Shown: one piece after another, positions 7,101 to 10,100 of the stretch
Position numbering within the stretch: position 1 is the first letter of the stretch
Layout of the letters: every line of letters begins with the position of its first letter
From: Metridium senile
Taxonomy: Eukaryota; Cnidaria; Anthozoa; Actiniaria; Metridiidae
Direction: 5' to 3'
Length of the DNA stretch: 64,000 nt
Assembly (NCBI GenBank): GCA_949775045.1
Contig: OX459110.1
Location: 11,813,741 to 11,877,740 of the forward strand
The notes under the pieces: generated by a model
What the model saw: only the letters and a program-made list of their open reading frames with translations
What the model was told of the DNA's origin: nothing
Database searches by the model: none
Translations under genes and position numbers: made by a program

Positions 7101-10100
7101 AGTGCCTGAGAATACTCGACGTATTTGCTGTCAAGACGTCTCATAGATTTGACAAGGTCTTTCTTACGGAACTTGATCTCGACTGTACCTGATGGCTCAA
7201 GTACATTCCCTCTGACATAAACGATAACGGGATTAATATTAATATAATAATAATAATATTTATAAGAAGTATGTTGCTGAATTTTAATCTCAAGTGTTGA
7301 AGTCGCGTTTTATCATCATCACTTCTCATCATTACCACCATCATCATGAAACAACGATTATTATCATCATTATTATCACAATCATCATCATCATCATGCA
7401 TCACGATTGCAATTCTCATCGCCGTGATTATCATAATCATCATCATCATCATCGCCATCTTCATCATTCTCATCACCATTATCCTCATAGCCATGTTAGC
7501 AAGTCATCATCTCCCATAACATATAAACAAGTAAAACAGTAGAAGAACTAACCTGCTTTTCTCATCAGCGTACATCTCCATGCACTTCGGATTGATAGTT
7601 GGGTCAACAACGACCCACGCCCCTCCCCTTAGTTCTGCATTAGGGGGGAGGTACACGAATACAGGTTGTTCATATTCACGTAAAGCATCTACGATATACG
7701 AACCGTACTTCAGAACAGAATCATACATGTCCATCATACCACCCGAGAAACCGCGCCAGTTGGCAAAGATGATCAGCGGTAGCTGCTCTTTACTGAAGTC
7801 CCGGATTGCCTGCGCGGTCTTGTAGGCGGAGTCTGGGTACCACACTTGACCAGCCTGTGCGGTGCTCTAGTGATAATTCAAAAACGAGAGCGAGGTTAAA
7901 TTAGGGTTTCTAAACACGAGAGAAATACTTGAAAGCACAAGGCTGTAGGAGGGTACAAACAAACCAAATGAGTCCGATTTCGGTACTTTAGATTTTACTG
8001 AATGGATGGATGAATGGATGAATGAATGGATGAATGGATGGATGAATAGATGGATGAATGAATGGATGGATGAATGAATGAGTGAACAGATGAATGAATG
8101 AATGAATGGATGAATGAATGGATGAATGAATGGATGAATGAATGGATGAATGAATGGATGAATGAATGGATGAATGGATGAACAAATGAATGGATGGACG
8201 GATGGATGAATGGATGAATGGATGGATGAATGGATGGATGAAGGAAGGAATGGAAGAAGGAATAAATGAATGAATGAATGGATGAATGAATGAGTGAACA
8301 GATGAATGAATGAATGAATGGATGAATGAATGGATGAATGAATGGATGAATGGATGAACAAATGAATGGATGGACGGATGGATGAATGGATGGATGAATG
8401 GATGAATGAATGGATGGATGGATGGATGAATGGATGGATGGATGAATGAATGGATGAATGGATGGATAGATGAATGAGTGAATGAATGAATAAATAAATG
8501 TGTGAGTGAGTGAATGAATAGCTGGCTGATTTACTAACGGATTGACTATGAACGAATAAATAAATGAACATGGTCCCTTTGAAATACCTTGGTATCAGAT
8601 TCAGGGTTTCCAGGGTCAGCTGGTATGACCACTTCAACAGCACGTGTCTCTGCTGCTATCACTGCTATAGGAATACCACCAAGCCTACAGGTAGAAAAAC
8701 ACAACAATTTAACGATGGATGGTGACTTGCCTGCGTAGTGTACTCGTCTTGGGTTTCGCACGACCATATTGGTAACATAGCTATCCCAAAACAACCCAAA
8801 ACAACCCAAAACAACTTTCTCCCGTCCCCCCAAAAAAGAAACGCTTGCTACGCAGGCTACATGGTGACAACGATGACTATCATGATGATAGTGATTAAGG
8901 TAAAGGTAAGACGATGTGTCGAAGAAGTTCTTGGTGATGTTGAAGGCGACGATAATGATGAAGACATTACTAGTGGTGATGGTAATGACAAATACGATAA
9001 TAAAAGTTGTTCTTTATGATGGTAATGATGATAATGATAATGGTGATGGTGATGATGATGGTGATGGTAATGATGATAATGATTATGGTGATGGTAATAA
9101 TGATGATGATAATGGTGATGCTGATAATGGTGATGATGATACTGGCGATGATGATGATGATAATGATGGCTGTGATGAGAATGATGATGATAACGACATG
9201 ATAATAATGATAATAATAACTGCTTGTGACGATGGTAAGTCCAGTTGTACCTTGCCCGTCCACATACAACAGTCTTGGCCCAGTTAGACATGGTCTCAAT
9301 AAACGAGTCTTGGTCAAAAAAGCCACTAATCCACGCCCCTTCTTTCTCTAAAAAGAAAGTAAAATATTTAAAATAGAAAATAAATAAATAGCTAAAATAT
9401 ATTTAAAACAAGTCCTGGTAATAACCTTAAAAGTAAGGAAAAAAAGATAGAAGGGTGATGTTTTGAAAGTTCTGTCAAATTGGACTCACCTAAAAGGCTC
9501 GTCCAATTTTGAAAACATTCAAAACATCAGTCGTACGTTATTAATTACGAATTGTACTCAAGATTGTGCGATTTCCTATACAAATACCACATGATAATTC
9601 AATAACCACCATCAATATTAAAGACCTTTATCAATGCAACATACCTGGGTTGGGGCATCCATTAATGAAGTGTCGAGGATCGTAAGGTACCTTGGTAGGT
9701 ATAAACTCTATATCTCTATCTACAGGGTCTAACATACCTGGGTTGGGACATCCACTAATAAAGTGTCGAGGATGGTAGGGTACCTTGGTAGGTATAAACT
9801 CTATATCTCTATCTACAGGGTCTAACATACCTGGGTTGGGACATCCATTAATAAAGTGTCGAGGATCGTAGGGTACCTTGGTAGGTATAAACTCTATATC
9901 TCTATCTACAGGGTCTTTGGTCTTCAGGATTGGTAATGGACCATTGCGAACCTAAATAAATAAATAAATTTACTACAATTTACTGAGGTATACCTGTATT
10001 ATTCTATACATTCCTGGTTGTTGTTGATGCGAATAATGATGATGATGGTGCTGATGGTGATGATGGTGATGATAATGGTGTTGGTGATGATGATAGTGAT

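Follow-up and report, generated by a model that had tools for sequence, protein, structure and literature searches.

The window analysed here is a stretch of 64,000 nucleotides of the Metridium senile genome (C16:11813741-11877740; assembly of 389 Mb in 169 contigs). Its minus strand carries a gene for acetyl-CoA carboxylase (ACC), the fat-making enzyme, in which the end of one exon, together with its splice donor, lies three times in a row:

4193..52804, minus strand: whole ACC coding region, 68 exons and 2263 codons with no internal stop (protein-guided spliced alignment to Nematostella ACC)
9831..9951, minus strand: exon 59 in its shortest form, 121 nt, ending at donor A (protein-guided spliced alignment to Nematostella ACC)
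9824..9916, minus strand: repeat copy A, made of 86 exonic nt and GTATGTT, with the GT of donor A at 9830-9829 (sequence, TRF)
9731..9823, minus strand: repeat copy B, with the GT of donor B at 9737-9736 (sequence, homologue alignment)
9638..9730, minus strand: repeat copy C, with the GT of donor C at 9644-9643 and the remainder of intron 59 behind it (sequence)
9251..9347, minus strand: exon 60, whose phase fits all three exon-59 donors (spliced alignment)

In the spliced alignment, the ACC coding sequence is complete, open and alignable end to end with known ACC, with 74% identity to the Nematostella protein over 2267 columns. The two were joined at a support of 100/100 in a 10-row tree, where Nematostella was the nearest of the rows compared and the only named sea anemone; the neighbours outside this pair were five stony-coral-like rows and one octocoral, a position that most likely marks a hexacorallian cnidarian. 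Judged by its complete open coding sequence, the enzyme is probably a functional ACC, and a pseudogene reading of the locus was rejected in view of an intact 68-exon gene with no internal stop. A protein-database search for a transcript or exon of the same species, with 7993 scored candidates, gave no near-identical protein among the matches listed, the best 120 of 5010, of which the top one reached 67%; a second such search gave none among the best 120 of 1776, and a third yielded four weak matches out of 895 candidates, none of them near-identical.

TRF reports the exon-59 array at 9638-9916 with a period of 93, 3.0 copies, 96% match and 0 indels, the copies A, B and C being in register; a threefold 93-bp repeat at this level of identity is not a chance event. 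The initial annotation, which had described a 93-bp unit of exon end plus donor occurring three times, is borne out in this respect, as is its exon number, since the exon starting at 9951 is no. 59 of 68 in the protein-guided model. The frame that it had called open indeed runs through the array for 102 codons with no stop. Each unit ends in CCAG/GTATGTT, i.e., in an AG/GT proto-splice site. Five sites distinguish the copies, and every change is private to a single copy: none to A, two to B and three to C. Both counts of substitutions given earlier proved correct: the two changes between A and B alter amino acids (Asp to His, Asn to Ser), and the three between A and C are all silent. The Asp change of copy B sits in a PYDPR stretch, at a residue kept in 240 of the 241 homologues spanning the site, and this loss fits a copy B that may be dispensable in any isoform.

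Near-identical copies are a classic source of assembly error, and the genome might in fact hold one or two copies, the surplus being due to reads that were collapsed or misjoined, or to two haplotypes. We regard this as highly improbable. The five private sites tell the copies apart, and the window is free of N and lies on a 14.6-Mb record (records can hold gaps, with 200 N in 200 kb of other stretches). A single exon-59 locus was found among the 46 matches scored in the animal's own assembly, the other 45 falling on the intronic ends of the query, and no single-copy version of the exon was among them (40 of 1457 first-look candidates scored). Like arrays are, moreover, common elsewhere in the genome.

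The three donors had been described as intact, and they share the same 9-mer, CAG/GTATGT, at 9830-9829, 9737-9736 and 9644-9643. Scored with a matrix built from the donors of this gene, the 9-mer reaches 12.1 against a mean of 7.9 and ranks third of 67; the splice matrices comprised the gene's own 67 modelled sites of each kind, with exon 59's own donor left out for its score. When exon 60 is joined from donor A, B or C, the frame is kept and products of 2263, 2294 or 2325 aa, respectively, are obtained. With at least two donors of splice-site quality before one acceptor, the arrangement is a candidate for alternative 5' splice-site use. Because the reference behind the gene model has a single copy, the fact that the model ends exon 59 at donor A says nothing about which donor is used. 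Neither the intactness of the donors nor the openness of the frame was accepted as an informative sign: the probability that 21 donor nt stay unchanged at the present divergence is about 0.68, and 2155 of 6639 possible 60-134 bp duplications copying the donor (32%) give an open in-frame product. The positions from -3 to +6 are identical and the 86 nt upstream nearly alike (five differing sites over three copies), so that it falls to order and downstream context, which do differ, to decide among the donors; the original intron adjoins donor C alone. The earlier designation of the donors as equivalent thus holds for their motif but not for their context, as equal tandem donors were unequally used in human reporter cells (PMC6783452).

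In that study, the first of two tandem 5' splice sites was predominantly used when both were set to consensus, a preference that the authors term 'first come-first served' (Mikl 2019, PMC6783452). The rule was measured in human K562 cells with sites 2-77 nt apart, against 93 and 186 nt here, and could be broken by sequence away from the sites. On this basis, we give slightly better than even chances to the reading that the tandem duplication is kept as a near-neutral passenger, with donor A mainly used and mostly normal ACC made. A short-range tandem duplication of the break-repair type would have taken in the final 86 nt of exon 59 and the 7 nt of intron 59 that follow; three copies would have been reached by another such round or by triplication in one step. 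Donor A (9830) would then be taken in most transcripts, first come-first served as in the human data, giving the ancestral ACC, with copies B and C remaining as the first part of the intron, and minor use of donors B and C might add one or two extra 31-residue pieces to a loop of the carboxyltransferase (CT) domain. Both the reading frame and the position in the loop may make such a longer ACC tolerable, and the array would persist, close to neutral, as a passenger that yields no more than a small ladder of isoforms. Central to this proposal is that splicing from equal tandem donors usually starts at the upstream-most one, so that mainly normal ACC would result and the array would be tolerated.

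The insertion point itself appears accommodating. The exon 59-60 junction falls in a variable loop of the CT domain, where gains or losses of one to four residues are common around the junction point, and 3 of the 241 homologues spanning the site carry insertions of 13, 14 and 30 residues at most 2 residues away from it (the count takes in only homologues that reach across the segment, out of about 240-244, and many of these are related vertebrate isoforms). In a structure model with a mean pLDDT of 80, the 30-residue insertion is predicted to form a disordered loop (pLDDT <50, residues 122-154); the best Foldseek matches of this model are solved ACC CT structures, the top one with a TM of 0.66 and an rmsd of 7.5. 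As the junction lies in a variable loop and the one modelled 30-residue insertion is disordered, the extra 31 or 62 residues could extend the loop and not break the core.

The same loop position would suit a normal ACC with three copies and 62 extra residues, made mainly from the intron-proximal donor C; constraint would then act on A and C, and B would be a free spacer. Only donor C has kept the original downstream intron, and the substitution pattern points the same way, with 3/3 silent changes between A and C and 2/2 amino-acid-changing ones between A and B, one of them at the nearly invariant Asp. All-silent changes in C would fit a translated copy C and to this extent count against the predominant use of donor A. 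The probability of 3/3 silent changes in copy C is 0.011-0.020 without constraint, depending on transition bias, and the earlier suggestion of constraint on the outer copies retains that much; weakening it, there are five changes in all and the contrast was picked after seeing the data, so that we take it as a hint at most. Five changes are too few, and since A has no private change, the sequence does not fix the order of events. The three-copy exon would, furthermore, measure 307 nt, exceeding 66 of the other 67 exons and becoming the second longest in the gene, and the first of equal tandem donors is favoured in human cells (PMC6783452). Predominant use of donor C is therefore unlikely in our estimation.

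We assign about the same low probability to a substantial use of all three donors, i.e., to a real ladder of one-, two- and three-copy ACC isoforms. That one gene could make all three, as the initial annotation had proposed, is possible on paper, given three identical strong donors in frame with a conserved phase. Yet the same motif does not give the same use, to go by the reporter study (PMC6783452), and no transcript of this kind was seen. Equal use of the three donors is unlikely.

Returning to the preferred reading of a tolerated passenger used mainly at donor A, the duplication process as such is ordinary in this gene, in which exons 63 and 67 have also had their donors copied. Three further tandem arrays bear on this point:

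6917..7108, minus strand: second array with a copied donor, three units of about 64 bp spanning the exon 63 end (TRF, sequence)
4667..4933, minus strand: third array with a copied donor, two units of 131 bp spanning the exon 67 end (TRF, sequence)
11289..11648, minus strand: fully intronic tandem array (3.5 copies of 103 bp) that begins 9 nt into intron 57 and leaves the donor uncopied (TRF, spliced alignment)

Exon 63 (7211-7093) has donors at 7092, 7030 and 6966, of which the middle one shifts the frame into a stop and the last adds 42 open codons; exon 67 (4996-4863) has donors at 4862 and 4731, and use of the second shifts the frame into a stop. The nearest downstream donor is thus frame-shifting in both arrays. 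A full-length enzyme requires splicing from the first donor at exon 67 and from either the first or the third at exon 63, which fits the first-donor rule and is no test of it.

Counting non-simple duplications with a unit of at least 55 bp and at least 1.8 copies, we found ten in the 64-kb window versus 11 in twenty arbitrarily placed 10-kb stretches (200 kb) of the same genome. The window is richer in duplications than the arbitrary stretches (Poisson P 0.003), and none was found by the same criteria in the 10 kb on either side of it. Such minisatellite-like duplication is a common kind of event in this genome and an ordinary process here. Six of the ten duplications are clustered at 2512-15217, which covers the 3' portion of the ACC gene and the sequence right after it, and three of the ten cover exon ends of the ACC gene. 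The apparently youngest of the set lies in intron 1 (47626-48027), a tandem duplication of 201 bp whose copies match at 100%.

The null model for their placement comprised eight chosen arrays inside the gene, seven with units of at least 64 bp and one of 33 bp, with simple-sequence rows left out. An excess of donor-spanning duplications was not accepted as non-random (3/8 vs 1.39 expected, P 0.14). That three donors and no acceptor were copied among the eight arrays is mildly unusual (simulated P 0.015), but has a chance of 1 in 8 given three hits.

Other repeats in the window are of different kinds. Intron 58 holds a MITE-like palindromic element at 10168-10433, with arms of 99 nt that are 93% complementary and 68 nt apart. 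A repeat piece in intron 59 (9500-9598) has at least 39 other matches at 88-94% and at least 3 at 80-83% in the assembly, and long ATC/TGATGATG-type simple repeats occupy introns and flanks at 14361-14659, 17238-17608 and 62308-63458.

As to the origin of the exon-59 array, the unit junction GTATGTT/AGACCC, inspected by eye, has no microhomology with the flanks, which is what end-joining of staggered breaks would leave; in mouse embryonic stem cells, tandem duplications of this sort result when breaks with protruding ends are repaired (PMC5730883). A two-step history of the array is possible.

The array might also represent a Rogers-type intron gain in progress, in which one 93-nt unit is removed in frame as a new mini-intron, from donor A to the AG at 9738 or from donor B to the AG at 9645. 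That introns can arise by duplication has been documented in a review (PMC3443670) and in reports of cases (PMC4974935, PMC3629103, PMC2891723); according to PMC2891723, duplications by a multiple of three permit differential splice patterns instead of a constitutive intron. Introns as short as 69, 82, 93 and 96 nt are present in the ACC gene model. Scored with a matrix of this gene's acceptors, the AGs at 9831, 9738 and 9645 reach 4.45, 4.95 and 3.21 and beat 16%, 19% and 12% of the 67 modelled acceptors, respectively. These scores are low, the acceptor of intron 59 itself reaching 9.07, and the products can equal those of plain donor choice. In our assessment, intron gain under way is very unlikely, if a little less so than an assembly error. 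A productive mini-intron ending at the new AG of copy B (9755) was rejected: this AG scores 0.01, and none of the acceptors modelled in the gene falls below 0.37. By its coordinates, such a mini-intron would be 76 nt long and would shift the frame.

Several known systems resemble the exon-59 array in part. In GYNGYN and other tandem 5' splice sites, several donors likewise compete for one acceptor and an in-frame protein change is possible. GYNGYN-type tandem donors lie a few nt apart, whereas exon 59 has three identical strong donors, 93 nt apart, that arose by copying. FLT3-ITD, a leukaemia mutation within coding sequence, is likewise a short coding-sequence repeat from tandem duplication; the exon-59 repeat, in contrast, stands in an assembled animal genome and includes the donor. 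Duplication-born introns (ATP2A1, potato RdRp, fission yeast SPOG_01682/SOCG_00815, Drosophila) share with exon 59 tandem coding copies that hold a proto-splice site, and in fission yeast a 24-nt unit, its length likewise divisible by three, is present in several copies (PMC4974935, PMC3629103). Unlike in these cases, the AG/GT of exon 59 is a working exon-intron border, and ready donors were copied. The reporters of Mikl et al. 2019 (PMC6783452), designed with a duplicated site sequence, also present equal donors in one transcript and favour the first, but they are human and have two sites 2-77 nt apart, whereas exon 59 belongs to a natural gene with three sites and a copied exonic context. 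Among the papers listed on ACC, tandem duplication, splicing and cnidarians or on duplicated splice donors, mostly papers outside subscription, we found no report of this arrangement. Duplication itself and the duplication route to introns are known; what sets exon 59 apart is that its functioning splice donor was multiplied by duplication in the genome without loss of the frame.

Choice among identical donors is usually studied in artificial constructs, and the ACC gene offers a natural test, with three in-frame donors at exon 59, the first and third in frame at exon 63 and only the first at exon 67. The postulated first step of intron gain by duplication may be catchable here, the copies still being 95-98% alike. 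If the first of equal donors wins, donor-copying duplications would be tolerated inside genes. Two linked readings follow this line, namely that there is an ACC isoform ladder with 0, 31 or 62 extra residues in the CT loop, its ratio set by the copy number of the donor repeat, and that donor-copying duplications persist while acceptor-copying ones are purged. We hold this combination to be rather doubtful; if it were true, donor arrays would be a standing source of isoforms and new introns.
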